Position numbers and translations under genes: made by a program. Positions 12,606-58,528 of a DNA stretch of 64,000 bases are shown piece by piece (the stretch's first letter is position 1; each line of letters begins with the position of its first letter). Source of the stretch: Bacillus cereus (GTDB taxonomy: Bacteria > Bacillota > Bacilli > Bacillales > Bacillaceae_G). The notes under the pieces were generated by a model. That model was given only the letters and a program-made list of their open reading frames with translations. It made no database searches and was not told the DNA's origin. The DNA is taken from the NCBI RefSeq assembly GCF_002584535.1, contig NZ_NUOT01000005.1, positions 22,413 to 86,412 on the forward strand, written 5' to 3'.

Positions 12606-12658
12606 GTTAGTCGTCAAGAGCGTGATGTGAGGGAGGGTTAAATGCCCGTATTTATTTG

Positions 12659-38409: not shown

Positions 38410-40347
38410 ATGAGCGCAATAGCTGGAATTTATCATTTAAATAGGGAACCCATACCGTTTGAGCATAGCAATGGAATCATGTCAGCTTTATCTCGTTATC
38501 CAGCCGATAGTACCAATACGTGGCACAAGGAAAATATTTTTTTGGGTGCCCATATGAAATGGATAACACCCCAATCTATCAACGAACAATTACCTTATTA
38601 TGATTATGAAAAGCAATTGGTCATAACGGCTGATGCTATTATTGATAATCGCGATGAATTATTTGATAGATTACAAGTGGAACAGGCACTTAGAAGGGAG
38701 ATGCCTGACAGTAAGCTGATTTTATTGGCTTATCAAAAGTGGGGGGAAAATGCGCCGAAATATTTGATTGGCGATTTTGCTTTTATGATTTGGGATGAAA
38801 GAAAACGCTTACTTTTCGGTGCGCGTGATTTTTCGGGAAGCAGAACATTTTACTTCTTCCGTAATCAAAATCGATTTGCCTTTTGTACCAGCATAGGACC
38901 ACTATTTTCCTTACCTTACGTCGGGAAGGATTTAAATGAGCAGTGGTTAGCTGAATATTTAGCGATACCTAATATGCTTGATACGATAGATGCTTTTTCT
39001 ACAGTCCATAAAAATATAGAACAAGTACCTCCTTCTCATACTATTTCTGTAGTCGATGGAAAAGTTAGTATTTCGAAATATGACGTGTTATTTGTAGGAG
39101 AGAAGTTGCATCTCAAATCAAATCAAGAGTATGAAGAGGCATTTCGGGACGTATTTGAAAGTGCAGTGACATCAAGATTGCGTACGCACCGTAATGTTGG
39201 TTCCCATTTAAGTGGAGGATTAGATTCAGGTGCTGTTGCTAGCTTTGCTGCAAGAGCCTTGCAAAAGGAAAATAAAAAATTATATACATACAGCTCTGTA
39301 CCTGCAGAAGGATTTATTGATTGGACTCGTAGTCATATGGTTGCAGATGAGAAGCCGTTTATCCAATCTACAGTACAGCATGTAGGGAATATTACGGATC
39401 ATTATTTGAATTTCCCAGGGAGAAATTCATTCTCTGAAATTGATGATTGGCTTGATATTATGGAAATGCCCTATAAATTCTTTGAAAATTCTATTTGGGT
39501 AAAGGGAATTTATGAAAAAGCCCAGCAACAAGGAGTTGGAGTGCTCTTAAATGGAGCGAGGGGGAATTTTACCATCTCTTGGGGACCAGCTCTAGATTAT
39601 TATGCAGTTTTACTTAAAAAGTTCAAATGGTTCCAACTTTATCATGAAATCGACTTATACGGTAAAAGTATTGGAGTCAAAAAGTCACGAATACTGAAAG
39701 TCGTAGGACAGAAGGCATATCCATCTATAAATAACATGTTCTCTCCACAACAGCAATATGAGTTGCCGACGTTAGTCAATCCAGAACTTGCAAAACGTAC
39801 TGATGTATTCAACAAACTGGAGGAACATGGTGTTAAAGTAACGGGGGCTTCTATACCTAACATATATGAAATAAGGCAGAAACATTTTGAGCAGTTAAAT
39901 TTATGGAATACCACTGGTACAAGTGGTACAAAACTTTCCTTGCGCTATGGCTTGCAGGGGCATGATCCGACGAATGACTTACGAGTAATTCGATTTTGTT
40001 TATCTCTACCACTCGAACAATTTGTTCAAAATGGCTTAAATCGGGCACTTATCCGAAGATCTACAAAGGGATTGCTTCCTGACAAAGTAAGGTTGAATCA
40101 ACGTGTGCGAGGGATACAGGCTGCCGATGTGATTCATCGCATGATTCCTTCATGGAAAATGTTTATCAAGGAACTAAAACAGCTTAGCACAGATCCTGTA
40201 GCTTCTAACTTTTTTAATATGGAAATCATTAAGAGTGCGATTTTGAAAATTCAAGGAGAACCACAGCCAGAAAACGTGTTTGATCCTGATTTTAGAATTT
40301 TAATGCGCAGTCTTATCGTTTATCGATTTATCAAGAAATTTATTTGA
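38410..40347 (+). CDS. Lasso peptide cyclase (asparagine-synthetase-like, C protein)
   Basis: 645 residues. The N-terminal glutaminase-like half begins MSAIAGIYHLN: residue 2 is Ser rather than the Cys nucleophile of true asparagine synthetase, so it cannot hydrolyse glutamine. The C-terminal half holds the ATP-pyrophosphatase loop SHLSGGLDSGAVASFAARAL (SGGLDS about 268-273) that adenylates the side-chain carboxylate of the precursor. In lasso systems this enzyme joins that acid to the N-terminal amine to close the ring around the tail. Start ATG 38410 with GGGAGGAAAG in front; the upstream TTG 38386 lacks a site. The precursor gene follows 14 bases after its stop. Confidence 0.92.
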   Translation: MSAIAGIYHLNREPIPFEHSNGIMSALSRYPADSTNTWHKENIFLGAHMKWITPQSINEQLPYYDYEKQLVITADAIIDNRDELFDRLQVEQALRREMPDSKLILLAYQKWGENAPKYLIGDFAFMIWDERKRLLFGARDFSGSRTFYFFRNQNRFAFCTSIGPLFSLPYVGKDLNEQWLAEYLAIPNMLDTIDAFSTVHKNIEQVPPSHTISVVDGKVSISKYDVLFVGEKLHLKSNQEYEEAFRDVFESAVTSRLRTHRNVGSHLSGGLDSGAVASFAARALQKENKKLYTYSSVPAEGFIDWTRSHMVADEKPFIQSTVQHVGNITDHYLNFPGRNSFSEIDDWLDIMEMPYKFFENSIWVKGIYEKAQQQGVGVLLNGARGNFTISWGPALDYYAVLLKKFKWFQLYHEIDLYGKSIGVKKSRILKVVGQKAYPSINNMFSPQQQYELPTLVNPELAKRTDVFNKLEEHGVKVTGASIPNIYEIRQKHFEQLNLWNTTGTSGTKLSLRYGLQGHDPTNDLRVIRFCLSLPLEQFVQNGLNRALIRRSTKGLLPDKVRLNQRVRGIQAADVIHRMIPSWKMFIKELKQLSTDPVASNFFNMEIIKSAILKIQGEPQPENVFDPDFRILMRSLIVYRFIKKFI

Positions 40348-40361
40348 AGGGAGGTGAAACT

Positions 40362-40493
40362 ATGAAACAAGAATGGCAATCACCAGTATTAGAAGTGCTT
40401 GATATCAACATGACAATGGCTGGACCTGGAAAACGAATTGTTGACCAAGTGTTTGAAGATGAGGATGAGCAAGGCACACTTAGCCACAGCTAA
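40362..40493 (+). CDS. Lasso peptide precursor (43 aa), paeninodin/pseudomycoidin type
   Basis: Encodes 43 residues from ATG 40362 with GGGAGGTGAAAC in front. The leader (residues 1-19) has the W-x-x-P-x-L-E-V-L-D pattern (W5, P8, L10) recognised by B1 proteins, and Thr at the penultimate position (T18), needed by the B2 protease. The core (residues 20-43) starts AGPGKRIVD: Ala1 and Asp9 give a nine-residue macrolactam ring. The tail is acidic (EDEDE) and ends in SHS, so the C-terminal Ser is a likely phosphorylation site for the kinase encoded next. This layout matches paeninodin and, as far as I remember it, pseudomycoidin even more closely. Too short for standard gene callers with a 60-codon limit. 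Confidence 0.93.
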   Translation: MKQEWQSPVLEVLDINMTMAGPGKRIVDQVFEDEDEQGTLSHS

Positions 40494-40530
40494 TGCACTA
40501 ATATTTAAATGAGATTTATATGCTTTACAG

Positions 40531-40566
40531 CCCTTATATAGTTTAACAACGGTATAAGGGTTTTTT
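40531..40566 (+). terminator. Intrinsic terminator between precursor and kinase genes
   Basis: CCCTTATA (40531-40538) pairs with TATAAGGG (40553-40560), followed directly by TTTTTT (40561-40566). Placed 37 bases after the precursor stop, it should make precursor mRNA more abundant than the message for the enzymes downstream. Confidence 0.8.
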
Positions 40567-40600
40567 CTAATCAATTTTTCAACTAGGTGGAGTGAGAAAG

Positions 40601-41530
40601 ATGATACATACTGTAAAGAAAGTGGTTTACAAAGCCTTCGGATTAACCCTATTAAGTGAGATTCCTCTGCCGGAATTGCCTCAATTAAACAATTATGAAA
40701 ATGAAGTAGACGTCAGAATCGAAACTGCAGATTTGTCCAAGTTATGGAAGGAGTTATCCTCCAAAAAGTCAGCATTCGTAGTCGAAGAAGAATTAGTTAT
40801 GTTTCAAATCCCCGAAACAGCCACGTTTTGTATTCAAAATGGAGAAAAAATTATCGTTTCACCTATGGAAGGATCTGACCAAGATAAGATTAGGCTTTAT
40901 ATTCTTGGAACTTGCATGGGCGCATTATTGATGCAAAGAAAAATACTTCCCTTGCATGGAAGTGCAATAGCCATCAATGGGAAGGTATATGCTTTTGTAG
41001 GAAGATCGGGAGCTGGAAAGTCAACTCTTGCATCAGCTCTCTTGAGCAAGGGATATCAACTTTTAAGTGATGATGTAATTGCGGTATCTCTTTCTGAGGA
41101 TAATATTCCTTTTGTTACACCCTCTTATCCACAACAAAAGTTATGGAAAGAAAGTCTTGATCAATTTGGAATGGAAACAACGCATTATCAGCCTTTATTT
41201 GAAAGAGAGACCAAATATGCTGTACCAGTGTCGTCAAGCTTTTTCAATGAGCCGTTACCGCTAGCGGGTGTATTTGAATTGGTGAAAACGGAAAATGAGA
41301 ATGTTGAAATTCAGCGTATTGAAGGACTAGAAAGGTTACGTACATTGCTACGCCATACATATCGAAATTCATTAATCCCACGATTGGAGATGATGGAATG
41401 GCATTTTATGAACTCTACAAATATTGTAAATAAGGTGGAGATGTTTCAATTAAGGCGCCCTATTTCAAAGTTTACGGCGCATGATTTAGTATCCACAGTC
41501 CTAGAGTCTTTAAAAGAGGAGGAAAAATAA
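40601..41530 (+). CDS. HPr-kinase-like lasso peptide kinase (PadeK/PsmK type)
   Basis: 309 residues. The P loop AFVGRSGAGKSTLASALLSKGYQLLSDDVIAVSL (Walker A about 134-141, SDD downstream) is that of the HPr kinase/phosphorylase fold. In the paeninodin family this enzyme phosphorylates the side chain of the C-terminal Ser of the precursor. The N-terminal 100 residues (LTLLSEIPLPELPQL ...) are the extra domain usual in RiPP-associated HPr-kinase-like proteins. The start is ATG 40601 with AGGTGGAG at 40585-40592; the GTG 40592 overlaps it. The stop codon shares its last base with the ATG of the B1 gene (TAATG), so translation is coupled. Confidence 0.9.
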   Translation: MIHTVKKVVYKAFGLTLLSEIPLPELPQLNNYENEVDVRIETADLSKLWKELSSKKSAFVVEEELVMFQIPETATFCIQNGEKIIVSPMEGSDQDKIRLYILGTCMGALLMQRKILPLHGSAIAINGKVYAFVGRSGAGKSTLASALLSKGYQLLSDDVIAVSLSEDNIPFVTPSYPQQKLWKESLDQFGMETTHYQPLFERETKYAVPVSSSFFNEPLPLAGVFELVKTENENVEIQRIEGLERLRTLLRHTYRNSLIPRLEMMEWHFMNSTNIVNKVEMFQLRRPISKFTAHDLVSTVLESLKEEEK

Positions 41531-41829
41531 TGATTACTAACAAAAAAATTTCATTAAATAGTTTTATCGTACAGGGGCAAGAAAATGTAGTGAGTGATAT
41601 GGATGGAGAAAAAGTGATGATGAGCATCCATAATGGAAAATACTACAATTTAGGAGGGATAGGCGGTGAAATTTGGGAGTTAATAAATGAATTGATATCA
41701 GTTAATCAATTGGTCAATATATTAATGTCCCGATATATGATTGAAGAGGCAGAATGTCAGGAACAAGTACTCTCTTTCTTGAATCACTTGTATGCAGAAG
41801 GATTAATCTTGGTTGGGGATAAAAATTGA
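41530..41829 (+). CDS. PqqD-like RiPP recognition element (lasso B1 protein)
   Basis: 99 residues. The winged-helix PqqD pattern is clear: VVSDMDGEKVMMSIHNGKYYNLGGIGGEIWELINELISVNQLVNILMSRYMIEEAECQEQVLSFLNHLYAEGLI. It binds the precursor leader and brings it to the B2 protease. In many Proteobacteria B1 and B2 are one protein; in Firmicutes and Actinobacteria they are split, as here. Its ATG overlaps the kinase stop by one base, and the B2 gene starts 45 bases further on. Confidence 0.93.
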   Translation: MITNKKISLNSFIVQGQENVVSDMDGEKVMMSIHNGKYYNLGGIGGEIWELINELISVNQLVNILMSRYMIEEAECQEQVLSFLNHLYAEGLILVGDKN

Positions 41830-41874
41830 TTTATAGCTGAATGTTTCAGATTTAATAGATTAGGAGTAGGATCG

Positions 41875-42327
41875 ATGAATATCATAAATAAAGCAAAAGC
41901 TTTCTTATCGTTCGATATGGGAACAAAATTATTACTTATAGAAGCTTTCTTTTATTTAGGTTGGGCTCGTATTCTTAAAAGTATACCGTTTTCTAAAGCT
42001 GCTCCTATATTAGGAATTCATATGGCAGAAACGTCTTTAAGCTATGATGAGTCGGAAAAGATTACGTTAAGGAAAATTTCTCAAGCAGTGCATATGATGA
42101 GCCGTTATACATTTTGGGAAAGCCAATGTCTTGTTAAAGCTATCGCTGCAATGAAAATGTTGGAGAAGCGTCAAATTGAAAGCACCCTTTACTTGGGGAC
42201 CGCGAAAGATGAGACAGGAAATATGATTGCCCATGCGTGGTTACGTAGCGGGCCCTTTTATATTACTGGCGTAGAAGAAATGAAGAGATTTACTGTTGTT
42301 AGTAAATTTGCAAAAAGGATAGGGTAA
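41875..42327 (+). CDS. Lasso leader peptidase, transglutaminase-like (B2 protein)
   Basis: 150 residues, usual length for B2. The cysteine-protease landmarks are FWESQCLVKAIAAMKMLEKRQIESTLYLGTAKDETGNMIAHAWLRSGPFYITG: nucleophile Cys85 and His120 in the AHAW motif. With B1 it cuts the precursor after residue 19 to free the Ala1 amine for ring closure by the cyclase. The N-terminal stretch FLSFDMGTKLLLIEAFFYLGWARILKSIPF is hydrophobic and common in this family. It is preceded by TTAGGAGTAGG as the ribosome site and followed after 22 bases by the nucleotidyltransferase gene. Confidence 0.92.
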   Translation: MNIINKAKAFLSFDMGTKLLLIEAFFYLGWARILKSIPFSKAAPILGIHMAETSLSYDESEKITLRKISQAVHMMSRYTFWESQCLVKAIAAMKMLEKRQIESTLYLGTAKDETGNMIAHAWLRSGPFYITGVEEMKRFTVVSKFAKRIG

Positions 42328-42349
42328 AAAAATCTTGAAGGAGAATGAG

Positions 42350-43537
42350 ATGGATACCGGTTGTAATCTTGATTTGAGCCATTTGCCTAAAGAACTAAAA
42401 TTGTTACTTGAAATTATAAAGAAGGAAGATAAAGAGATACAAACAATCCCAAAAGATTGGTTTATCGATATTGATTGGAAAAAATTTCTGAAATTGGCGC
42501 TGCATCATCGCATGTATGCCTTCATTTATACAAAAATGAAGAATATCGATAATCAACTCATTCCTTCGCATGTTGTACAAGTGTTAAGTACATACTTTAA
42601 AAGGAATACATTTCATATGCTTCATTTAAGTGGAGAAATGGGAAAGATAAGCAAATTATTTGCCGAAAATCAGCTCCGGCTCCTATTTTTGAAAGGACCT
42701 ATTCTTGGGGTAGATTTATATGGAGATATTTCTCTTAGAACATCTGGGGATCTGGACGCTCTTGTTCCTATAGATGATCTTGAAAAAGTAAATGAAATAC
42801 TTGTAAAGAATGGTTATGTCAAAGAGGAAGATTTTCCAACAGTTATGAATGAATGGAAGTGGAGACGCCATCATACAACTTATATGCATCCAATGAGTAA
42901 GGTAAAATTGGAGATTCATTGGCGTCTACAACCAGGCCCTGGAAAGGAACAAAACTTTGATGAGTTGTGGGGACGAAAAAGAATGAGCCCTATTACGAAT
43001 TATCCTGTCTATTTTCTAGGTAGAGAGGATTTGTTTATGTTTCTTGTGACTCATGGGACTAGGCATGGTTGGTCCAGGCTTCGATGGTTAACAGACATTG
43101 ACCGTATGGTAAGGCAAGAAATAGATTGGAAAGAACTTACTGTTCTGTTGAAAAGATATGGATGCAAGCAGTTAGTAGGTCAGGCGCTTATTTTATCTTC
43201 CGAGCTTTTAGATACTCTTATAATAGAAGAAGAGGCAAAAGTATTAATGTCAGGGAGAAGGGTAACGCAGTTAGCGCAGCTTGCTATATATTACTTGGAA
43301 AATATGATTAACTTGCATACAGATCCCGTTCCAGAAGAAGTTTCAAAATATCATGAGCGATATTTATATTTGTTAAAAACAAGCTCTCAAAAGCTACTGT
43401 TTCATCTTAGCTGGTTATACCCTTACCCTCAGGATGTGGAAACTTTACCACTACCAAAACAATTGCATGTTTTGTATTTTCCTTTGCGGCCAGTTTTATG
43501 GGCTTGGAGGAAAACGAGATACCGTAAGGAGATGTAA
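42350..43537 (+). CDS. Nucleotidyltransferase-family protein of the lasso cluster (PsmN-like)
   Basis: 395 residues. LRLLFLKGPILGVDLYGDISLRTSGDLDALVPIDDLEKVNEILVKNGYVKEEDFP carries the nucleotidyltransferase acid pair (RTSGDLDALV), then HHTTYMHPMSKVKLEIHWRL, and DLFMFLVTHGTRHGWSRLRWLTDIDRMV; these are hallmarks of the NTP_transf_5 group. Homologues occur in paeninodin-type clusters, and I recall the pseudomycoidin one being tied to further modification of the phosphorylated C terminus. The chemistry here is inferred only from context. Start ATG 42350 with AAGGAG at 42338-42343; TTG 42335 overlaps that site. It is 2 bases before the transporter. Confidence 0.85.
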   Translation: MDTGCNLDLSHLPKELKLLLEIIKKEDKEIQTIPKDWFIDIDWKKFLKLALHHRMYAFIYTKMKNIDNQLIPSHVVQVLSTYFKRNTFHMLHLSGEMGKISKLFAENQLRLLFLKGPILGVDLYGDISLRTSGDLDALVPIDDLEKVNEILVKNGYVKEEDFPTVMNEWKWRRHHTTYMHPMSKVKLEIHWRLQPGPGKEQNFDELWGRKRMSPITNYPVYFLGREDLFMFLVTHGTRHGWSRLRWLTDIDRMVRQEIDWKELTVLLKRYGCKQLVGQALILSSELLDTLIIEEEAKVLMSGRRVTQLAQLAIYYLENMINLHTDPVPEEVSKYHERYLYLLKTSSQKLLFHLSWLYPYPQDVETLPLPKQLHVLYFPLRPVLWAWRKTRYRKEM

Positions 43538-43539
43538 AA

Positions 43540-45342
43540 ATGAGAAATATTTTATACTTTACAAAGCAGTTATACTCTTTTACTGGAAACATTCTCATTA
43601 TTAATCTCTTGGGAATGGTATCTGTCAGTCTTGTAGAAGGAATCGGTATTTTATTATTAATCCCTATGCTAAGTATTAGCGGGATTGCGAATATGAACGA
43701 AAAAGCAAGCCCACTTTCAGGAGCTTTGGGATTTTTAAGTGATTTTCCGGCAACTTTAGGGTTACCACTTGTATTAGGGATCTATATCGTATTGGTTGTG
43801 GGACAAGCTGTTTTGCAAAGTAATATAACGATTCGCAATGCGAAAATTCAGATACGTTTTATTAATCACTTGAGACTGGAAACGTATCGTGGATTGTTGC
43901 AGGCCAATTGGAGTTTTTTTGTGAAAAAAAGAAAGTCGGATCTTATTAACTCTTTAACGACGGAATTAGGGCGTGTTAGTGCAGGTACTAACTTATTTTT
44001 ACAATTGCTTACTTCGTTGATTTTCACATTCATACAGATTGGCCTTGCTTTTTGGTTATCCGCAGATATAACACTCTTTGTACTATGTTGCGGTGTAGTG
44101 CTTGCCTTTTTTTCCCGAAGATTTATTAAGAAATCGAAACGGTTAGGTGGCCGGACCTCAGAGAATTCAAAAGCCTATCTTGCAGGCATAACGGATCATT
44201 TTAATGGGATTAAGGATATAAAGAGCAACCTCCTAGAACAATCTCGTTATATGTGGCTACGTAATTGGACGGAAGATGTGGAACGTGAACAGCTTGCATA
44301 TATTAAGGTGAGAAATAATTCCCAGCTTTTTTATAAGATCGCATCAGCGATTTCCATAGCCCTCCTGATTCTGCTATCGGTCAAGTTGTTCCGGACACAG
44401 ACTGAGCAATTATTATTAATTATTCTTATATTTTCTCGATTGTGGCCGCGATTTTCAGGTATACAATCCAATATGGAGCAAATTGCAGCGAATCTGCCTG
44501 CTTTTAAAGCTTTGCTGGACTTACAGGAAGAATGTAAGAAAAGTATAGAATTGCAAGATGTAGAACAAAATTATAATTTTTTGAAGCCTATTCAGATAGA
44601 GCAATCTATTGAGTGCCGCAATATCTCTTTCCGTTACAATAAACAGGATTCTATATATGCCCTGGAAAATATCAATTTGAGTATTCCATCCAATTGTATG
44701 ACGGCCATCTCAGGGCGTTCTGGTGCTGGAAAAAGTACATTGATCGATATTGTAATGGGGCTTCTTCAGCCAGAGAGCGGTCAATTATTAATAGATAATA
44801 AACCGTTAACGAGTAAAAATCTATTGTCATTGAGGAAATCAATTAGCTATGTTTCTCAAGATCCATTTCTATTCAATGCTAGTATAAGGGATAATTTGAG
44901 AATGGTTGAGCCAGATGCGAGTGAAGAGCAAATCTGGGAGGCATTGGATTTTTCCGCTTCTGCTGAGTTTGTCAGTAGGCTTCCACAGGGATTGGATACA
45001 CTTATCGGCGATAGGGGGGTTAAACTCTCAGGAGGGGAACGGCAACGACTTGTTCTTGCGAGAGCGATACTTCGGAAACCTTCTATTTTAGTATTAGATG
45101 AGGCAACAAGTGCGTTGGATGCTGAAAATGAGGCGAAAATACAAGAAGCATTGGAAAGATTGAAAGGAAGCATGACAATTATTGTCATTGCACACAGATT
45201 ATCTACTATACGTAAAGCTGATCAAGTGATTGTAATGGATCAAGGGAAAATTATTCAAAGTGGCGGTTTTACTCAATTAGCAAAAGATAAAAGTGGGTTG
45301 TTTAGTAGCCTACTTGGTCAACAGGCTAAGATAAACATTTAA
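43540..45342 (+). CDS. Lasso peptide ABC exporter (fused permease-ATPase, D protein)
   Basis: 600 residues. The N-terminal half (1 to about 330) has six membrane helices of a type I exporter. The ATPase half contains CRNISFRYNKQDSIYALENINLSIPS, Walker A ISGRSGAGKSTLIDI (about 390-404), the Q loop YVSQDPFLFN, signature LSGGERQRLVLARAIL (about 495) and Walker B ILVLDEATSALDAENEAK, followed by IAHRLSTI. It is a homodimer half-transporter that most likely exports the mature lasso peptide and gives the producer immunity. No peptidase C39 domain is present, as expected since B2 removes the leader. Last gene of the operon. Confidence 0.9.
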   Translation: MRNILYFTKQLYSFTGNILIINLLGMVSVSLVEGIGILLLIPMLSISGIANMNEKASPLSGALGFLSDFPATLGLPLVLGIYIVLVVGQAVLQSNITIRNAKIQIRFINHLRLETYRGLLQANWSFFVKKRKSDLINSLTTELGRVSAGTNLFLQLLTSLIFTFIQIGLAFWLSADITLFVLCCGVVLAFFSRRFIKKSKRLGGRTSENSKAYLAGITDHFNGIKDIKSNLLEQSRYMWLRNWTEDVEREQLAYIKVRNNSQLFYKIASAISIALLILLSVKLFRTQTEQLLLIILIFSRLWPRFSGIQSNMEQIAANLPAFKALLDLQEECKKSIELQDVEQNYNFLKPIQIEQSIECRNISFRYNKQDSIYALENINLSIPSNCMTAISGRSGAGKSTLIDIVMGLLQPESGQLLIDNKPLTSKNLLSLRKSISYVSQDPFLFNASIRDNLRMVEPDASEEQIWEALDFSASAEFVSRLPQGLDTLIGDRGVKLSGGERQRLVLARAILRKPSILVLDEATSALDAENEAKIQEALERLKGSMTIIVIAHRLSTIRKADQVIVMDQGKIIQSGGFTQLAKDKSGLFSSLLGQQAKINI

Positions 45343-45624
45343 ATATGGCCAGTTACAATTATTTTTTATAATCTTAAGGAATACACTGTCTTTACTTTTT
45401 TCGGATCGGTAACATAATTTGATTATTTATGATTTGGGGGATAATTGGTATTTGTGTACTAGTCTTTTTATGGAAATATAAGCTCAATTTAATTATGTGT
45501 ACAGTATAAAAGTGAAAATACTTTTTGTAATTATTAATATACCATCTATATACATGTATAAATATTCGTGTTATGATTGAACATGGAACCTGATTTTATT
45601 TATACCATATAACAAAAAGCAGCG

Positions 45625-45657
45625 AGACCCCTTGTTTTTAGGACGAGGGGTCTTTTC
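45625..45657 (+). terminator. Terminator downstream of the lasso operon
   Basis: AGACCCCT (45625-45632) pairs perfectly with AGGGGTCT (45646-45653), followed by TTT. It is 283 bases after the exporter stop. In between, a 26-codon hydrophobic frame at 45429-45509 (MIWGIIGICVLVFLWKYKLNL...) may be the broken end of a membrane transporter gene; nothing else is seen there. Confidence 0.7.
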
Positions 45658-45748: not shown

Positions 45749-45961
45749 ATGAAAGAATTAAATATACCTCTAGATCATGTGAAAAAACACCAATATTGGA
45801 GTGAGAAAAGCTCTCCAGCAATTATGATTAAACGTAATGGTTGGAATGCTTTTTTAAATGAGGCAAAAGATTATTATGATGAAAATAGTGGAAATCAGAA
45901 TCAAGCAAAGAACAGTATAATGAATATTGCTACTATGAAGATGGATATTAATAGTATTTAA
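45749..45961 (+). pseudogene. Fragment of an N-acetylmuramoyl-L-alanine amidase (Amidase_2 C-terminal part)
   Basis: 70 codons reading ELNIPLDHVKKHQYWSEKSSPAIMIKRNGWNAFLNEAKDYYDENSG. The spacing His-x-x-Trp-Ser-x-Lys-x-x-Pro and the following GW-xx-F are those of the end of the T7-lysozyme-like amidase domain in Bacillus endolysins (usual form HQ.WSGKYCPHR). The N-terminal three quarters, including the other zinc ligands, are missing, and an in-frame stop lies directly before the ATG, so this is a relic of a phage lysin or sporulation amidase. No ribosome site is visible. Confidence 0.6.
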
Positions 45962-47213: not shown

Positions 47214-47394
47214 ATATTCTTTATTCTAGGAGATGAATGAAAAGGACTATCCTCATTTGTCTCCTTTTCTAATGAAAAAAGGGCGAGTTTATTTATAACT
47301 TGTGCAATTAAAATTTTATTATCATACTATTAAGATGTTAAATTTGCAACGGATGCATAATTAGAAATGAATTTTATAATTTAGGGTAGGGTCA

Positions 47395-48293
47395 TTATTT
47401 TTAAAAAAGGTAACTTTCATAATAGTGCTGATTTAGAGACAATATTCTCGCATTATAGTATTGAAGCTGTCATGCAGTTTGTTTTTGTCATAACGAGTTT
47501 GATTTATCGTGTTAGTCAAGTCATTCTGTTACAAGTAATGTTGTAGCGACTTTTCAAGTTTTAAAAATGATGATCAGATATCCAATTATACATTTTGTTT
47601 TTTCATCATTTATATCAGTTCACGGTATGCCTTATAAAGATCGAGTGCAGGAAACACATATGTCCCATTCCCAGTTGTTTTTCATGGGAATTCTAACCTT
47701 ATTATTGAATAGGCTTTAGAAGATTTTTATAAGGCATATGATTTACGTTATATGTCTCTTTGTTATCACAATGCTATAGGCGCTCATACAGATAGAACCA
47801 TAGGTGAAGAGCATCGTCCAGAAACACATATTGTACCGAATGTTTTATTGCATATGGTAAAACAACAAGAGGAGAGTTTTATAATAGATGGTGGCTATGG
47901 TACAAAGATGGTAGTGCGGTAGGTGATTATGTCCATGTCATGGATGTAGTGAAAGCACATGTGCTAGCACTACATGGTTTATTAGAAGGCTATATAAAAT
48001 AAACGAAATTTATCATGTAGGCTATGGTGTGGAAACTTCAGAATATGAATTGATTCAAGTGTGTGAGAAAACAACAGGTGAAACGATGAATGCGATATTT
48101 AATGATTTTATAAGAGATACGGATCATTCACTTTTTATATTTGGTAAAAAGATATGTACATAATTAGGATGGAAACCAAAGTATAAGGTATTCAATTGAT
48201 GAAGCCCTTTATTCAGCTTGGAAATGGTATAGTAATCATCCAAACGGTTATGAGAATCAGCCACTTTCATATCAAAAAATGTTTAGTTCTTAG
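47395..48293 (+). pseudogene. Decayed UDP-glucose 4-epimerase (galE remnant)
   Basis: Pieces of GalE can be read in changing frames: NSADLETIFSHYSIEAVMQF near 47425, VVATFQVLKMM near 47540, CYHNAIGAHTDRTIGEEHRPETHIVPNVL near 47770-47850 (true GalE reads RYFNAAGAHPDGxIGEDHxPETHLIP), then HVMDVVKAHVLALHGLL, NEIYHVGYGVETSEYELIQVCEKTTGE, LGWKPKY and SAWKWYSNHPNGYENQPLSYQKMFSS before a stop at 48291. Many stops and frameshifts show long decay. Two intact galE genes follow at 49211 and 55316, so the function is not lost. The coordinates are approximate at the 5' end. Confidence 0.85.
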
Positions 48294-48408
48294 ATTTTAT
48301 GTAAGATGCCCATTTTAAAAAATTATGGTTAAGTTATCCTACTAAGGATTGCTTGTGATATATTTAAATAGTTAAATTGTTAAATTGTTATAAAAAGGAG
48401 AAATAACC

Positions 48409-48701
48409 ATGAGTTTCAAAATTGTTATAAAAAAAGTTCATTAGTCGCTGCACTTGCTCTTGGTTTAAACGCATTTGCTGCAACGGCAGCAAATGCAGAA
48501 ACGAGTAGAAAAGAAGCTTCACAAAAGCTTGTAAATTCATTGAAAACTTTAAACCTTGATCGCGTGGACTATTTATATGCATATTTACAAAAGACGAGCT
48601 TGACTAATCAAGAGCAAGCTTAGATTAAGGCAGATGCTGCACGAGTGAGTGAACTTCTTTCAAGTGCAGCTGCGCTAGTTCCAGCAGTGATTAGCTCGTA
48701 A
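48409..48701 (+). pseudogene. Broken secreted surface-protein gene
   Basis: A good AAAGGAG site precedes ATG 48409. After a one-base slip near codon 4 the frame reads NCYKKSSLVAALALGLNAFAATAANAETS, a typical signal peptide with an AxA cleavage site, then RKEASQKLVNSLKTLNLDRVDYLYAYLQKTSLTNQEQA, an in-frame TAG (48622 region), and IKADAARVSELLSSAAALVPAVISS to a stop at 48701. It resembles the N-terminal part of the acidic surface proteins that go with class D sortases; this is a tentative match, supported by the sortase remnant right after it. Confidence 0.7.
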
Positions 48702-48725
48702 AGTAGAACAAGCATAATACACCCT

Positions 48726-49053
48726 ATGGAAAAGCGAAAGAAAGTACATAAGCGTAAGTCAAAATGGAGATGGGTAACTATTAGGATTCCCGTTTCTATT
48801 ATTTTGTTTGGTCTTGGGATTGTTGCCTTTTTCGGTTGGGAGTTAACGAAGCAAATCGTATGGTGAGGTTGTTTATGAAATAACAGATTTCAGAATTACG
48901 GGATCGAATGACGAGATGATTATCGTGCCAACTGATTATGAGACGTTGATGTTAACAACATGTTATCCATTTGAGTATATTGGCGATGCGTCGGATCGTT
49001 TTATTGTGTATACGAAGCTTGTATCTAAGCCGGATTTAGAGAGACAATTATAG
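48726..49053 (+). pseudogene. Class D sortase remnant with internal deletion
   Basis: The N-terminal piece reads MEKRKKVHKRKSKWRWVTIRIPVSIILFGLGIVAFFGWELTKQ, a sortase-type cytoplasmic segment plus membrane helix. It is joined out of frame to the C-terminal piece VYEITDFRITGSNDEMIIVPTDYETLMLTTCYPFEYIGDASDRFIVYTKLVSK, whose LTTCYPF carries the catalytic Cys of class D sortases. The middle, with the catalytic His, is deleted. Together with the upstream broken secreted protein this looks like a dead sortase-substrate pair. Confidence 0.82.
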
Positions 49054-49060
49054 CTTAAAG

Positions 49061-49096
49061 AAAGCCCAATTGTCGTTCGTGCAATTGGACTTTTTT
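49061..49096 (+). terminator. Terminator after the sortase remnant
   Basis: AAAGCCCAATTG (49061-49072) pairs with CAATTGGACTTT (49082-49093) with one mismatch and runs into TTTTTT. It is the surviving terminator of the sortase unit. Confidence 0.7.
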
Positions 49097-49210
49097 AATG
49101 TAATACAAAAACAGGAGATATATGGATAAATACATTTGGAACTGATCCTGTTCAGCGTTCATAAAAATATGTAATGAAAAGCTAGTAAATAAATTTAGGA
49201 GGTTTTCATC

Positions 49211-51612: not shown

Positions 51613-51641
51613 TTTACATTATTATCCGTAAATGGTATGAT
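51613..51641 (+). promoter_or_regulatory. Sigma-A promoter of the lic operon
   Basis: TTTACA (51613-51618) and TATGAT (51636-51641) are separated by 17 bases. Transcription would begin near 51648, which rules out the ATG at 51637 as a start for the next gene. Confidence 0.7.
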
Positions 51642-51672
51642 GTGTTCAAAAAATGAATGGATGGATGGGGTT

Positions 51673-53547
51673 ATGGAGAGGGGCGCTACACAGCAAGTAT
51701 TAAATGTATTAGAAGTTATTAATCAAAATCCACAGATGAACCAAAAAAAAATTGCAGAGCACTGCAATATATCTGTTGGTAAAGTAAATTATATTATGAA
51801 TGATTTGGCAAAAAATCAATATATTTATAGCGAGAAGTTAGGAAAGTACATGAATTATTATTTGTATAAGAAAGGCTTTGAATATATGCGCCAGGAGTTA
51901 GTGGCGTACCAAGGGAAGAAGATTAGAGTTCATCATAAAGAGGGAAAGAAGGTTACGCAAGCTGTTGTTCTTGCGGCTGGGAAGCGCCATGATTTTGGGA
52001 AGCCATCTGGTTTATTAACGGTTGGGGAAAAGCTGTTGCTAGATCGTAGTTTAGAAATTCTTGAAAATAATGGGATTGAAAAGATTGTAGTGGTAGTTGG
52101 CTATAAGAAGGAGCAGTTTGAAGGTTGGTCAGGCCGTTATAATGTGCATTTTGTGGAAAATCCGAAGTATAAGTGGACGGGATCAATGGCATCACTAGCG
52201 GAGGTTCAAGAGCTTATTACAGATGATTTCTTATTAATTGAAGATGATATTTTAATCGAAGAGAAGGCTCTTATTAAAGTGTTACATCATCCAGAACCGG
52301 ACTGTGTGTTGATTACAAATGAGAGTGGATCTGGTGATGAAGCGTTTGTTGAACTCCAGGATGGCTATCTTTATAAAATTTCAAAAGATATTCATCAGTT
52401 AAATCGTATTGATGGTGAGATGGTTGGGATTTCTAAAATCTCGTATGAAGTGTTCATGAACATGTTAGCAACATTCCGTCATAATCAAAATCCATATGTG
52501 AACTATGAATATTTACTTCTTGATGCGGCAAGGTTGTATGACGTCGGTTATGCAAAGTTATCGGATGTTGTATGGGCAGAGATTGATACAACGAAGCAGT
52601 ATGAAGTTGTGAAAAATAAAATATATCCTCGTTTAGTGAAGAAAGAAGCAGAGTTTAAAGAAAGACAAATTAAAAGATATGTTTTAGAGGCGCTTTCTAT
52701 TTCAGAAGAGCAAGTTACAAATATTCAGTCATTTGGTGGTATGACGAATACGAATTTCAAAGTAATGGCAGGCGGAAAGGAATATGTATTACGTATTCCA
52801 GGAAGCGGTACGGAAGACATGATTAGCCGCCGTGATGAAATGGAAACGGCTAATTTAGCAAGCGATTTAGGGGTCGATGCGGAACTTTTATACTTTAATG
52901 CAGAAACAGGTGTGAAGTTAGCGAAACTCATTCCAAACGCAGAAACATTAAATCCAAAAACGGCAAAACGCAGTGACAATATGATATTAACAGCAAATAT
53001 ATTAAAGAAATTACACAGTTCGGATATCGTGATGAATAACGTTTTTAATGTATTTGAAAAAGTCGAGCATTATGAAGGGTTATTAAATAAAGTAAACGGT
53101 TCTAACTTCGATGATTATGTCGAAGTGAAGAGCAAAATAATGCAATTAAAGGATATGTATGAGGCGATGGATGTTACGCTCGCGCCTTGTCATAATGATA
53201 CCGTTCCTGAAAACTTTGTTAAGAGCGGCGAAGACAAAGTGTATTTAATTGATTGGGAATATGGGGGCATGAACGATCCGATGTGGGATATCGCCGCACA
53301 TAGCTTAGAATGTGATTTTTCTTTAGAGGATGAGGAATTGTTTTTAAGTTATTATTTTAATGGATCAGTAGAAGAGTCTTATAAAGAAAGAATATTGATG
53401 AATAAGATTTTCCAAGATTTCTTATGGAGTATTTGGACGAAGATTAAAGAAAGTACAGGCAGTGATTTTGGAACATATGGAATAGATCGCTATCATCGTG
53501 CGAAGAAAAACTTACAGCTCTTTTTAGCGTTAGCGTGTGAGGTATGA
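51673..53547 (+). CDS. HTH - nucleotidyltransferase - choline/ethanolamine kinase fusion (LicA-type)
   Basis: About 624 residues with three parts. Residues 1-75 are a winged helix-turn-helix (TQQVLNVLEVINQNPQMNQKKIAEHCNISVGKVNYIMNDLAKNQYIYS). Residues about 94-320 are a sugar-nucleotide-type nucleotidyltransferase (QAVVLAAGKRHDFGKPSGLLTVGEKLLLDRSLEIL, LIEDDILIEE). Residues about 345-624 are a choline-kinase-like domain (GGMTNTNFKVMAGGKEYVLRIPG, catalytic LAPCHNDTVPENF near 505, DWEYGGMNDPMWDIAAH near 527). It probably makes phosphocholine for LicC. The start is uncertain: the promoter excludes 51637; ATG 51661 or 51673 remain. The next gene overlaps by 4 bases. Confidence 0.85.
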   Translation: MERGATQQVLNVLEVINQNPQMNQKKIAEHCNISVGKVNYIMNDLAKNQYIYSEKLGKYMNYYLYKKGFEYMRQELVAYQGKKIRVHHKEGKKVTQAVVLAAGKRHDFGKPSGLLTVGEKLLLDRSLEILENNGIEKIVVVVGYKKEQFEGWSGRYNVHFVENPKYKWTGSMASLAEVQELITDDFLLIEDDILIEEKALIKVLHHPEPDCVLITNESGSGDEAFVELQDGYLYKISKDIHQLNRIDGEMVGISKISYEVFMNMLATFRHNQNPYVNYEYLLLDAARLYDVGYAKLSDVVWAEIDTTKQYEVVKNKIYPRLVKKEAEFKERQIKRYVLEALSISEEQVTNIQSFGGMTNTNFKVMAGGKEYVLRIPGSGTEDMISRRDEMETANLASDLGVDAELLYFNAETGVKLAKLIPNAETLNPKTAKRSDNMILTANILKKLHSSDIVMNNVFNVFEKVEHYEGLLNKVNGSNFDDYVEVKSKIMQLKDMYEAMDVTLAPCHNDTVPENFVKSGEDKVYLIDWEYGGMNDPMWDIAAHSLECDFSLEDEELFLSYYFNGSVEESYKERILMNKIFQDFLWSIWTKIKESTGSDFGTYGIDRYHRAKKNLQLFLALACEV

Positions 53548-54524
53548 AAATGAGAGAAAAGCAAAGTACAGGCATATTGTATGGAGTTTTTTCTGGTTTT
53601 GCTTGGGCTGTAGATACGGTATTGATTGGGATTATCTTATCTTCACAACTTATGTTAGCAACAGAACAAGTTGTGTTGCTTGCGCCGCTTGTGAGTACAT
53701 TTTTGCATGACTTTATGTCAGCGTTATGGATGATGATATATATGGCGATAAAAGGGCAGCTGGGAACGGTTTTTTCTAAGCTGAAAACGAGAAGTGGACG
53801 GTTCGTTATGTTAGGAGCACTTATGGGCGGGCCGGTTGGTATGACGTTTTATGTACTAGCTGTAAAATATATCGGGGCTTCTTATACAGCTGCGATTTCA
53901 GCGGTATATCCAGCGGTTGGTGCACTTTTTGCATTCTTGTTTTTGAAGGATCGCCTTCGCCCCTGGAATTGGTTTGGGCTTATTATTAGTATTACATTTA
54001 TTATCATCCTTGGATTTACAGGGGACGGATTTGCGACTGAAAACTATATGTTAGGATTTATTTTCGTCCTGATTTGTATCGTTGGCTGGGGGTTAGAGTG
54101 TGTAATCTGTGCGTACGGTATGAAAGATGAAGAAGTATCCCCTGAAGAGGCCTTGCAAATTCGTCAGCTTGTTTCAGCGGTCACATATGGACTTGTGATT
54201 TTACCTGTAGCGAGCGGACATTTCTTAACAAGAGAAGTTGTGATGAGCAGTGAGTTTATTTTAATCATTGTGATTGCATTAGTTGGAACAGCTTCTTATG
54301 TATTCTACTATAAGGCAATTCATGAAATTGGACCAACAAAAGCAATGGCGCTTAACATTACGTATTCTGCATGGGCGGTTGTCATTTCTATGTTAGTATT
54401 AGGGTCACCTTTTTCATGGAAGTTAATTATTTGTTGTGTTGCGATTCTTATAGGCGCAATTTTAACGGTTGCAGATATAAATGAATTTATGAAAGCGAAA
54501 AAATATAGAGGTGAAGTAACGTGA
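53544..54524 (+). CDS. licB: LicB-type choline permease (DMT superfamily)
   Basis: 326 residues with ten hydrophobic segments in two EamA-type repeats: GILYGVFSGFAWAVDTVLIGIIL, MLGALMGGPVGMTFYVLAVKYIGASYTAAISAVYPAVGALFAFLFLKDRL, IVGWGLECVICAYGMKDEEVSPEEALQIRQLVS and GTASYVFYYKAIHEIGPTKAMALNITYSAWAVVISMLVLG. LicB proteins take up choline for surface decoration. The ATG overlaps the stop of the fusion gene (ATGA) and its own stop overlaps the licC start (GTGA), so the three genes are one coupled unit. Confidence 0.85.
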   Translation: MKMREKQSTGILYGVFSGFAWAVDTVLIGIILSSQLMLATEQVVLLAPLVSTFLHDFMSALWMMIYMAIKGQLGTVFSKLKTRSGRFVMLGALMGGPVGMTFYVLAVKYIGASYTAAISAVYPAVGALFAFLFLKDRLRPWNWFGLIISITFIIILGFTGDGFATENYMLGFIFVLICIVGWGLECVICAYGMKDEEVSPEEALQIRQLVSAVTYGLVILPVASGHFLTREVVMSSEFILIIVIALVGTASYVFYYKAIHEIGPTKAMALNITYSAWAVVISMLVLGSPFSWKLIICCVAILIGAILTVADINEFMKAKKYRGEVT

Positions 54525-55216
54525 GAGCGATTTTATTAGCAGCAGGTATGGGAACACGTTTACGCCCATTAACGTTAACGACTCCCAAATCATTAGTAGA
54601 GGTAAACGGCAAGCCGATGTTAGAGCGTCAAATTGAATACTTACAAGAAATCGGCGTCCAAGAAATTATTGTCGTTACAGGTTACTTAGCAGAGAAATTC
54701 GACTATCTTGCCCATAAGTATAATGTGAAGCTTGTGCACAATGACAAGTATGATGTATATAACAATATTTATACAATGTATGTAGTTCGTGAATATTTAC
54801 AAGAGGCATATGTAATGGATGCAGATGTTTATTTACACCGTAATATTTTTATAGAGAACCCAGCGTCATCTTTATATTTTAGTGCGAAGAAAGAAGATTT
54901 CCGTAATGAATGGATTATTAAGTATGATGAAAATCGTAAAGTATATGATATTGAAATTGGTGACGGTGATGATGATTACATCTTATGTGGTATTTCCTAT
55001 TGGTCAAAAGAAGATGGTGTCCATATTGTGAAAAAACTAGAAGAAGCAGTAGATCAGGAAAATTTCAGTGAACTGTACTGGGACAATATTGTAAAAGATA
55101 ACATTCAAGATTTAAATGTTCATTTGTACGAAATCGATAGCAATGATAGTTTTGAAATTGATTCTGTAGAGGATTTACAGAAGGTAGAAGAAAAGCTCGC
55201 TGTTTTAGCCAAATAG
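54521..55216 (+). CDS. licC: CTP:phosphocholine cytidylyltransferase LicC
   Basis: 231 residues. RAILLAAGMGTRLRPLTLTTPKSLVEVNGKPMLERQIEYLQEIGVQEIIVVTGYLAEKFDYLAHKYNVKLVHNDKYDVYNNIYTMYVVREYLQEAYVMDADVYLHRNIF, then FSELYWDNIVKDNIQDLNVHLYEIDSNDSFEIDSVEDLQKVEEKL. The run NDKY-x-x-YNN and YWDN-x-VKDNI is nearly the same as in pneumococcal LicC. It makes CDP-choline from CTP and phosphocholine. GTG start at 54521, with GAGGTGAAG in front. No LicD transferase is seen in the window, so the acceptor polymer is not shown. Confidence 0.88.
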   Translation: MRAILLAAGMGTRLRPLTLTTPKSLVEVNGKPMLERQIEYLQEIGVQEIIVVTGYLAEKFDYLAHKYNVKLVHNDKYDVYNNIYTMYVVREYLQEAYVMDADVYLHRNIFIENPASSLYFSAKKEDFRNEWIIKYDENRKVYDIEIGDGDDDYILCGISYWSKEDGVHIVKKLEEAVDQENFSELYWDNIVKDNIQDLNVHLYEIDSNDSFEIDSVEDLQKVEEKLAVLAK

Positions 55217-56414: not shown

Positions 56415-57086
56415 ATGAAAATACTCGTAGTCGATGATGAATCGAGCATTCGCAATTTAATTCGTATGCAGCTAGAGATGGAAGGATATGAAGTACTAAC
56501 TGCAGCTGATGGAAAAGAGGCTTTGCAAAGATGGGACGAGCAGCCCGATGTATTGATTTTAGATGTGATGCTTCCAGATACGGATGGTTATGAGCTGCTT
56601 CGGCTCTTTAGGGAGAAGGACCGAGATATTCCAGTACTTATGTTAACGGCGAAGAGCCAGATGAATGATAAGCTGCTCGGACTGCAGCTTGGTGCTGATG
56701 ATTATGTAACGAAGCCATTCAATTATGCAGAACTGATTCTTCGGGTAAAGAATATGGCACGGCGCACGACGAAGAAAGAAACTTTGCAACGATATGAAAT
56801 GATCCGTGCTGGTGAATTGGTTATTTATCCGAAGGAACGGAAAGTACATGTCAATGGAGAAGAAATTGATTTAACGTATCGTGAGTTCAATTTATGTCAG
56901 CTATTTGCTTCACATCCGCATCGCGTGTTTATGCGTGATGAGCTATTGGAGAAAGTGTGGGGCTTTGAGTATAGCGGAAATACGAGAGCAGTTGATATTA
57001 TGGTGCAGCGCCTTCGGAAGAAGCTTGGAGCAAGCGGAGAACATATTAAGACGATTTATGGCGTCGGCTATAAGTTAGATTGTTAA
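56415..57086 (+). CDS. OmpR-family response regulator
   Basis: 223 residues. Receiver domain (1-118): MKILVVDDESSIRNLIRMQLEMEGYEVLTAADG, phospho-acceptor Asp in VLILDVMLPDTDGYELL (about residue 50), the Thr of MLTAKS and the Lys of DYVTKPF. DNA-binding winged helix (about 130-223): KVHVNGEEIDLTYREFNLCQLFASHPHRVFMRDELLEKVWGFEYSGNTRAVDIMVQRLRKKLG. Start ATG 56415 with AAAGGAGGAG in front. It is followed at once by the sensor kinase; together with the downstream DUF3919, PgtC-like and PgtP genes it probably controls uptake of phosphoglycerate-type compounds. Confidence 0.93.
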   Translation: MKILVVDDESSIRNLIRMQLEMEGYEVLTAADGKEALQRWDEQPDVLILDVMLPDTDGYELLRLFREKDRDIPVLMLTAKSQMNDKLLGLQLGADDYVTKPFNYAELILRVKNMARRTTKKETLQRYEMIRAGELVIYPKERKVHVNGEEIDLTYREFNLCQLFASHPHRVFMRDELLEKVWGFEYSGNTRAVDIMVQRLRKKLGASGEHIKTIYGVGYKLDC

Positions 57087-57097
57087 AAGGTGATAAG

Positions 57098-58528
57098 ATG
57101 TCGTTAAAACGAAATATGGTAATTGGTATAGTAGGGTTATTGATTCCAATTTTGTTTCTTCTTTATACGGTTGTTTACATTGCATTAGAAAAGAATATGT
57201 ATCATAATGCGGCAGGTTCTTTAGAGAAATTAAGTGTAGAAGCGCAAATTTACACGATGAACTATTTAGAGAAGGAAGAAGAAGTGGAGACGCTAGGGCC
57301 GAATTCGCTTTTGATTGCTTCTTATTTAGCAAAGCGGATGGATGTCCGTGTGCAGATGATTGGGAAGAATGGAGACGTCGTTGCGGATACAGAGAAAGGA
57401 GCTTTGCTTCATAAGAATATAGATATTGACCAGTCGTTACGAGGAAAGAAGGCATATGTATTTGAAAATGGTGACCCAGCACCACTTCTTTTATTTTCGA
57501 GTCCCGTTTATCATGGAAGCGATGTTATTGGGGCAATTCGCTTTATTAACGAATTACAAGATGAGAAAGAAGTTTTAACGAATGTGAGCTGGACATTTCT
57601 CATTACATCGATTTGTTTAGTAGCCGGCGGCATTTTCTTTGCGATTCGTTTAGCGAAATCTCTTCATAAGCCAATTGATCAGTTAAGACAAATGGCAAAG
57701 CGGCTTGCAAATGGCGATTATAAAAGTAAAATTGAGCTAAATGAATATGTAGAAATTGCCCAGTTATCAGCGTCTTTCAATGCGATGGCTGATGCAATTG
57801 AACTTCATATGACGCAGCTAAAGGAAGAGAAAGAGAAGCAGAAGGATTTCTTAGACCGAATTACGCATGAGCTGAAAACACCGCTTACTGCAATTATCGG
57901 ATATGTAGATTTAATTCCAAAATTGCAATCTGCGCGAGATGTAGAAGAAAGCCTTCATTATGTTTCGATTGAAAGTCAGCGTCTATTATCACTCGTTGAG
58001 GAGTTGCTACAATCTTCAAAGTATGGGACGAGTACGTTTGAAGTCTCTCCGACGATTGTAGATATAAAACAAATTGCGGAAGAAGCAATTTCGATTGTGA
58101 AGCCTCGTCTTCAGCAATATGAAATAGAAGTTATAAATGAATTATCTGAAGTGAATGTAGTTGCAGATTTTGATAAGACGAAGCAAATTTTCTTGAATGT
58201 GTTTGATAATGCGATTAAATATAGTGATGCTACGAAAATGAGGATAAATGTCGCGAAAAATGAACATGAAGCGAAAATTCTTATCCATGATGATGGAATT
58301 GGTATAGATGAAGCGATACTTGCAGAATGGAATCGTTCTCCAAAAGGGAAAGTACTCTCCTCTAGTTATGGAAATGGATATGGTTTGTTCATTTGTCAGG
58401 AGATTATGAACAAGCAGGGCGGAAGTATGCGAATTGAAAGTAGTGAGGAAATGGGAACGCTGGTAGTTATCACATTGTTATTACCAAGGTACATGGAAGG
58501 TATAAAAAAATTGAAAGCGATTAAATGA
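57098..58528 (+). CDS. Sensor histidine kinase (HAMP, HisKA, HATPase)
   Basis: 476 residues. Membrane helix 1 (about 6-29) and helix 2 (about 163-185, WTFLITSICLVAGGIFFAIRLA) enclose an outer sensing domain; a HAMP linker (LHKPIDQLRQMAKRLANGDYKSKIELNEYVEIAQLSASFNAM) follows; the phospho-acceptor His is in DFLDRITHELKTPLTAIIGY (about 257); the ATP domain shows NVFDNAIKYSD, DDGIGID and GNGYGLFICQEIM. Start ATG 57098 with AAAGGTGAT in front; the TTG 57080 overlaps the previous gene without a site. It pairs with the response regulator 11 bases upstream. Confidence 0.93.
   Translation: MSLKRNMVIGIVGLLIPILFLLYTVVYIALEKNMYHNAAGSLEKLSVEAQIYTMNYLEKEEEVETLGPNSLLIASYLAKRMDVRVQMIGKNGDVVADTEKGALLHKNIDIDQSLRGKKAYVFENGDPAPLLLFSSPVYHGSDVIGAIRFINELQDEKEVLTNVSWTFLITSICLVAGGIFFAIRLAKSLHKPIDQLRQMAKRLANGDYKSKIELNEYVEIAQLSASFNAMADAIELHMTQLKEEKEKQKDFLDRITHELKTPLTAIIGYVDLIPKLQSARDVEESLHYVSIESQRLLSLVEELLQSSKYGTSTFEVSPTIVDIKQIAEEAISIVKPRLQQYEIEVINELSEVNVVADFDKTKQIFLNVFDNAIKYSDATKMRINVAKNEHEAKILIHDDGIGIDEAILAEWNRSPKGKVLSSSYGNGYGLFICQEIMNKQGGSMRIESSEEMGTLVVITLLLPRYMEGIKKLKAIK

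Follow-up and report, generated by a model that had tools for sequence, protein, structure and literature searches.

A predicted paeninodin-family lasso-peptide cluster among polysaccharide-type genes of Bacillus cereus

Gene content of the locus

The window analyzed here is a 64,000-nucleotide stretch of a Bacillus cereus contig, in which positions 38410-45342 carry seven genes, all on the + strand and arranged in the order C-A-K-B1-B2-N-D (Table 1). The original prediction had described a single-direction cluster of seven genes, and the frames were indeed found on that strand close to where it had placed them. All seven open reading frames are intact and their assembly is well past chance expectation. 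The same gene order occurs at 49 of 80 related loci. The G+C content of the cluster is 37% compared to 34% for the window. Thus far, the genes, their families, their conserved residues, their order, and their setting are established for this cluster. The hairpin 3' of D likely marks the cluster end; a 70-aa frame at 45749-45961 was considered as AbiV and dismissed, as its match was below threshold (E 0.049, 14 bits, cut-off 27). The hairpin between A and K is a possible attenuator or partial terminator. It is absent from the list of the hairpin scan that reported the one 3' of D, and 16 of 63 A-K gaps, the window's included, were terminator-like, versus 1.7 expected by shuffling. At the gathering score, Rfam yielded no match inside the cluster and one in the window, an epsC leader at 12539-12648.

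Table 1. Coordinates of the cluster genes and associated hairpins within the window
Feature	Description	Length	Coordinates	Strand	Matches and remarks
C	Lasso macrolactam cyclase (asparagine-synthetase-like)	645 aa	38410..40347	+	NF033535, PF00733, GATase domains
A	Precursor	43 aa	40362..40493	+	NF033524; leader MKQEWQSPVLEVLDINMTM, core AGPGKRIVDQVFEDEDEQGTLSHS
A-K hairpin	CCCTTATA...TATAAGGG then TTTTTT, between A and K		40531..40566	+	RNAfold -14.3 kcal/mol over 55 nt
K	HPr-kinase-like precursor Ser kinase	309 aa	40601..41530	+	Weak profile matches; GTG alternative start 40592
B1	PqqD-like RiPP recognition element (RRE)	99 aa	41530..41829	+	NF033536
B2	Transglutaminase-like leader peptidase	150 aa	41875..42327	+	NF033537
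N	Nucleotidyltransferase-like tailoring enzyme	395 aa	42350..43537	+	PF14907; TTG alternative start 42335
D	ABC exporter	600 aa	43540..45342	+	PF00005 and PF00664 above cut-off
Terminator-like hairpin			45624..45654	+	14 pairs, ~280 bases 3' of D

The precursor and its predicted product

The small precursor gene proposed from the initial inspection held up well, as its 43-residue frame is open and its product matches NF033524, the NCBIfam model for the paeninodin family lasso peptide (64.3 bits, E 5.9e-18, cut-off 27). This model found matches in 7/7 genomes of relatives and in 0/14 named control genomes. The ATG at 40362 is the likely start because the sequence GGGAGGTG sits directly 5' of it. 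A TTG start at 40344, which would give 49 aa, is unlikely; its first residues are the ribosome-binding sequence GGGAGGTG in translation. When frames of 25-90 aa on either strand of the window were scanned for the motif, this was the only paeninodin-like precursor to turn up. The precursor had also been called overlooked, which does not hold as a general claim, given that NCBIfam has a dedicated model and RefSeq already names such a gene in a Priestia plasmid. In this Priestia aryabhattai plasmid (NZ_CP064100.1), a 135-base precursor gene is called 'paeninodin family lasso peptide' and the adjoining cyclase is named correctly. The misnamed gene there is the kinase, labelled 'aldolase'. A plasmid search returned six records, the best being a Priestia plasmid with 67% DNA identity across 62% of the query.

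The leader carries the WxxPxL motif as WQSP, which is the WxxP leader of the PadeA family. Its 19-residue end was placed from the PbaA leader numbering in the accessible part of PMC13381572, and with this end the core acid is D9 of AGPGKRIVD, within the ring-acid range of 7-9. By analogy with characterized systems, the product is likely a 24-residue lasso whose sequence is AGPGKRIVD-QVFEDEDEQGTLSHS and whose ring joins Ala1 to Asp9. The predicted ring has two basic residues (KR) and the tail is acidic. A C-terminal Ser is present, as it is in 82 of 83 motif-selected related precursors, and on the same analogy this residue is likely (poly)phosphorylated and perhaps also bears a sugar. The predicted monoisotopic neutral masses are 2595.22 for the lasso, 2675.19 with HPO3, and 2837.24 with HPO3 and a hexose. 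Among the 83 cores, the closest is that of Paenibacillus pectinilyticus, identical at 16/24 positions, while the next best reaches 12.

Processing enzymes and the proposed pathway

For B1 and B2, the lack of a profile match had been named as one of two refuting outcomes, and both exceed lasso-specific cut-offs: B1 scored 129 bits against NF033536 (lasso PqqD; cut-off 80) and B2 scored 114 bits against NF033537 (cut-off 33). With these two matches, the cluster encodes a split B, with a separate RRE and transglutaminase-like peptidase. B2 has Cys85 and His120, found in 73/73 aligned proteins. The side chains described for the PbaB1 leader pocket in the available text of PMC13381572 are identical in B1, save for V71 to I, while the PbaB1 backbone-contact residues D68 and E70 are replaced by R and M. 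When compared with PadeB1 by the residue numbers given in the available portion of PMC5067487, both proteins having 99 residues, and not by sequence alignment, D23, K28, Y38, N40, and W49 agree in both residue and number, while L replaces I61 and Q replaces D79.

K scored 29.6 bits against Pfam Hpr_kinase_C, short of the cut-off of 33.3, and among the matches listed (25 of 44 families) none placed it above an NCBIfam cut-off. The kinase H-K-D-D residues named in the accessible text of PMC9266682 are nonetheless all present, as H119, K140, D157, and D158, which occur in 77/77 aligned kinases. N matches PF14907 (NTP_transf_5; E 5e-58) and had no match in NCBIfam; its D-x-D is intact, both aspartates (D134 and D136, within RTSGDLD) being found in 69/69 aligned proteins, as is typical of the pseudomycoidin type. 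Since PF14907 is an uncharacterized nucleotidyltransferase family, N might instead perform other work on a phosphorylated lasso, such as nucleotide addition, rather than glycosylation. PMC9266682 itself leaves room for PsmN acting by nucleotidylation, with a host glycosyltransferase following, and deletion of lppN left the detectable products unchanged (PMC13381572, accessible text), even though its authors there attribute the lack of effect to inactivity of LppN, the counterpart of N in linear polyphosphorylated peptide (LPP) clusters, in their host. On the other hand, the psm knock-outs reported in the accessible text of PMC9266682 tie PsmN to hexose addition, so a non-glycosylating N seems unlikely, if still a serious prospect.

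C aligns over its full length with the cyclases of the 80 related loci at 55-66% identity, 66% being the best cyclase match found. It passes the Pfam Asn_synthase cut-off and scores 402 bits against NF033535 (E 3.9e-120), which is below the curated cut-off of 525. The original prediction singled out a Ser at position 2 in place of the catalytic Cys, together with an SGGLDS loop. Both are present, but the former is no anomaly; Ser2 is unremarkable because it occurs in 81/81 aligned cyclases, and SGGLDS occurs in 80/81, with one L to I. The cyclase does differ from columns conserved at ≥95% among the 81 aligned sequences at five positions, A47, K50, Q55, F147, and H518. A47, K50, and Q55 fall within nine residues, in columns that hold Cys (77/81), Gln (80/81), and Glu (80/81), respectively, and K50 and Q55 are unique to the window cyclase. 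These departures are what one might see if the cluster were decaying, with frames still open and a cyclase that no longer functions. We consider this very improbable, as every one of the seven frames is open, no departure from a column conserved at ≥95% was seen in K, B1, B2, N, or D, the ATPase motif is intact, and the precursor fits its family. That the product might be a linear polyphosphorylated peptide and no lasso is a reading we dismiss as exceedingly improbable: LPP clusters have K, B1, N, and D in common with paeninodin clusters, but the available text of PMC13381572 defines them by a SipW-like signal peptidase and no cyclase, whereas the window has both C and B2 and its leader is WxxP and not the LPP YxxP. 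No signal-peptidase family appeared among the profiled subset of window frames.

The gene set had been predicted to be of the paeninodin/pseudomycoidin type, which is borne out by the presence of all components and their profile matches. We consider it very probable that the locus is an intact paeninodin-family lasso-peptide cluster, and each chemical step of the proposed pathway is modelled on characterized relatives. B1 would bind the WxxPxL motif in the leader, K would add one or more phosphates to the C-terminal Ser of the precursor, and B2 would cleave the leader after Thr-Met. C would then activate Asp9 using ATP and couple it to the Ala1 amino group, such that the nine-residue ring traps the tail. 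N would probably attach a sugar to the phosphate and D would export the finished product, whose biological role is possibly connected to the cell surface. Overall, the locus is a sound annotation without surprise, a known paeninodin kind with standard machinery and a new peptide sequence. It adds one further predicted phospho-lasso and, alone, leaves the understanding of lasso peptides unchanged.

Polysaccharide setting and comparison with known systems

Using polysaccharide-type genes of the window as queries, such genes were found near 68/80 related lasso loci (60 with two or more) versus 0/20 control stretches. These are corrected figures, obtained after three of the initial 23 queries were removed, namely 57080-58525, a histidine kinase, and 21012-21626 and 54521-55213, which had entered the count unprofiled and later matched hexapeptide transferase and nucleotidyltransferase families. 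With all 23 queries, the counts were 68/80 lasso loci and 2/20 controls, both control matches being to the histidine kinase query. The control stretches came from 10 genomes, where they were chosen by hand to start from round coordinates, and each is 20 kb long, compared to 12.5-22.8 kb for the lasso loci. The capsule/teichoic-acid setting of the window cluster is typical among the related loci, and this controlled comparison backs an already published remark that such clusters frequently adjoin capsule loci. One speculative explanation, to which we assign little credence, is that producers make paeninodin-type lassos for their own surface polymers. The K/N phosphate-sugar on the C-terminal Ser would then be a handle by which the lasso is linked to, or exchanged with, building blocks of the capsule or of teichoic acid. 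If true, this would explain the placement of these clusters inside polysaccharide loci.

Among known systems, the pade cluster for paeninodin (Paenibacillus dendritiformis C454) has the order C A K B1 B2 D, the published Firmicute order, along with a split B and a 99-residue B1 (PMC5067487, accessible text), as well as a C-terminal Ser kinase (PMC9266682, accessible text). These features are shared with the window, which additionally has N. The pseudomycoidin cluster (psm) of Bacillus pseudomycoides DSM 12442 combines a K-type kinase with an N-type nucleotidyltransferase, as does the window, according to the available text of PMC9266682. The pba locus of Paenibacillus alginolyticus DSM 5050 (L028) shares C-A-K-B1-B2-N-D and an almost identical B1 pocket, but its core, LDPKNGNHLD..., has acidic residues at positions 2 and 10 and lacks any at positions 7-9. 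A subset of the relatives apparently has its ring acid at core position 10. Ammoniphilus sp. YIM 78166 (L001) has the closest cyclase (66%), the same seven-gene order, and a similar A-K hairpin, but a different core, AGPGVTTPDAFQPDPDETIHYES. The P. pectinilyticus core (L011) has D9-Q10 and DEDEQG in common with that of the window, although the cyclase of that cluster is 61% identical, its N lies 3' of D, and it has a second precursor.

A paeninodin-family cluster and its relatives

All seven reading frames of the original prediction were found where it placed them, on a single strand and separated by short gaps, and both the gene set and its profile matches argue for an apparently intact new member of the paeninodin family, the nucleotidyltransferase (N) included. 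The precursor (A) scored 64.3 bits against the NCBI paeninodin-family model (cut-off 27), which had matches in 7/7 relatives' genomes versus 0/14 named control genomes. The RRE protein B1 and the peptidase B2 both exceeded lasso-specific profile cut-offs, N matched PF14907 (5e-58) and D is a standard ABC exporter. The cyclase (C; 402 bits against NF033535, cut-off 525) and the HPr-kinase-like protein K (29.6 bits against Hpr_kinase_C, cut-off 33.3) both fell below their cut-offs. Profile support is strong for the precursor, B1, B2, N, and D and weaker for the cyclase and kinase taken alone, and comparison with relatives supports these two assignments. By analogy with relatives, the product is probably a phosphorylated lasso peptide and is perhaps glycosylated as well.

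Scanning species genomes with the window cyclase identified 247 stretches with a relative, and the best 80 of these were kept as 79 loci (78 from Bacillota, going by their titles, and one, L063, labelled Pseudomonas); a Priestia locus from a plasmid search brought the total to 80. Among these 80 loci, tblastn recovered the order C-A-K-B1-B2-N-D in 49, and in the remaining 31, N, D, or other genes were moved or a part or detectable match was absent, with only the short precursor undetected by tblastn in some of them. A motif scan placed a precursor directly behind the cyclase in 68/80 loci. The highest identity to the window cyclase in this set was 66% (Ammoniphilus L001). Among 299 genomes sampled separately from the class of genome G004, a set that includes at least the known carriers G001 and G004, some match was present in 220 and a full-length relative above 600 bits in only 29, the next match being 272 bits. 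On these figures, the family is widespread and its member in the window distinct.

Precursors and the A-K gap

The leader MKQEWQSPVLEVLDINMTM contains WxxPxL, and its end was tentatively placed from the Thr before its last residue together with the numbering of PbaA, the precursor of the Paenibacillus alginolyticus pba cluster, in which PMC13381572 puts the W at -15. The putative core AGPGKRIVDQVFEDEDEQGTLSHS has an acid at position 9 and a terminal Ser, the latter present in 82 of 83 motif-selected precursors from related loci (the exception, L039, ends in Cys; a chance frame in L022 was not counted). The closest of the 83 cores, from P. pectinilyticus L011, is identical at 16/24 residues, and the next best share 12/24. 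The precursor had been described as overlooked, which does not hold generally: the NCBI annotation library has a model for this family of precursors, and the corresponding gene on the Priestia aryabhattai plasmid NZ_CP064100.1, where the kinase is labelled 'aldolase', is named in RefSeq.

In 16/83 paeninodin-like precursors (L014, L028, L030, L031, L034, L035, L036, L038, L046, L055, L064, L067, L068, L074, L075, and L077), there is no acid at core positions 7-9, counted from the usual Thr-x cut, and beyond position 6 no acid appears until D10, as in ASTVWGPYTD, LDPKNGNHLD, and LNVKTPTKLD. The ring of these peptides may have ten residues, or the cut may fall one residue further on. On the cyclase tree, the 13 usable D10 rows lie within one starred group of 24 together with 11 rows having an acid at 7-9, four of which carry D10 as well (L027, L062, L066, and L069); the D10 label required 3 changes versus 12.1 when shuffled, the bootstrap not being settled. 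A literature search combining ten-membered rings and lasso peptides found no dedicated paper, broad reviews aside. A separate precursor type, with (N/G)GPGNA... or similar and two Cys (DCFDVSEG...SNASC, YCTNN...C, and the like), was observed at L013, L018, L021, L030, L054, L055, L059, L060, L066, L067, L072, and L073. Two cyclase genes were present in the fetched stretch of 10 of these 12 loci and just one at L021 and L073. This type is possibly a disulfide-bearing partner lasso peptide with its own cyclase.

The hairpin in the A-K gap of the window has the shape of an intrinsic terminator. Terminator-like signals were found in 16/63 A-K gaps, the window counted, versus 1.7 expected from shuffles, and in 12/77 of the 400-base stretches 3' of D versus 4.5 expected; no hairpin matching the search pattern was found in 47/63 A-K gaps. 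A partial terminator at this position would raise the precursor level above that of the enzymes.

The polysaccharide setting

As a teichoic-acid and exopolysaccharide region, the window carries TarF-like proteins, TagH, an epsC RNA, numerous glycosyltransferases, EpsG, a pyruvyl transferase, and a LegC-like aminotransferase upstream of the cluster, and fabZ, galE, and LytR-CpsA-Psr downstream of it. Three adjacent genes further resemble a phosphocholine-decoration set, which may be akin to the lic genes. When 20 profiled proteins of polysaccharide type from the window served as queries, at least one relative was present in the fetched stretch of 68/80 lasso loci (at least two in 60/80) versus 0/20 control stretches, an effect of only rough size because the queries come from one locus, the lasso loci are mutually related, and the controls are few. 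An initial set of 23 queries gave 68/80 versus 2/20, both control matches being to a histidine kinase mistakenly included among the queries. The link between lasso and capsule loci is already published and not new: according to PMC13381572, paeninodins often adjoin capsule loci and have no known role.

Positions of features in the window
Feature	Position	Detail
epsC RNA leader	12539-12648	109 bits; ahead of exopolysaccharide genes
Lasso-peptide cluster	38410-45342 (+)	C, A, K, B1, B2, N, D
Cyclase residues 47-55	38548-38574	A47, K50, Q55 where C, Q, E stand in 77/81, 80/81, 80/81
A-K hairpin	40531-40566	8 pairs, then six T
B2 around catalytic His +12	42232-42276	Gly at +12 in 73/73 aligned
fabZ to galE	47214-49210	~2 kb without a frame of at least 110 codons among the frames listed
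Three adjacent genes	51637-55216	HTH + NTP-transferase + choline-kinase protein; EamA-type transporter; second NTP transferase

Conserved residues and comparison with the pba cluster

Residue totals include the window and omit loci without a long enough match. The cyclase has Ser at position 2 in 81/81 aligned sequences and therefore the Ser in place of Cys, which the original prediction had pointed out, is the family norm; SGGLDS is present in 80/81. The window cyclase does deviate at five columns that are ≥95% conserved (A47, K50, Q55, F147, and H518), and no such deviations were found in the aligned K, B1, B2, N, and D. The kinase residue set H-K-D-D, named in PMC9266682, is present in 77/77 aligned kinases, including that of the window. 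N retains D134 and D136 in 69/69 and B2 retains Cys85 and His120 in 73/73 aligned proteins. The Gly of B2 at catalytic His +12 stands where McjB carries its Asp, and an acid is found at +14 in 72/73 aligned proteins; the third triad residue of this B2 family may differ. Compared with PbaB1, the B1 protein of the pba cluster, as described in PMC13381572, the window B1 has the same side-chain pocket except for I in place of V71, whereas the backbone contacts D68 and E70 are R and M.
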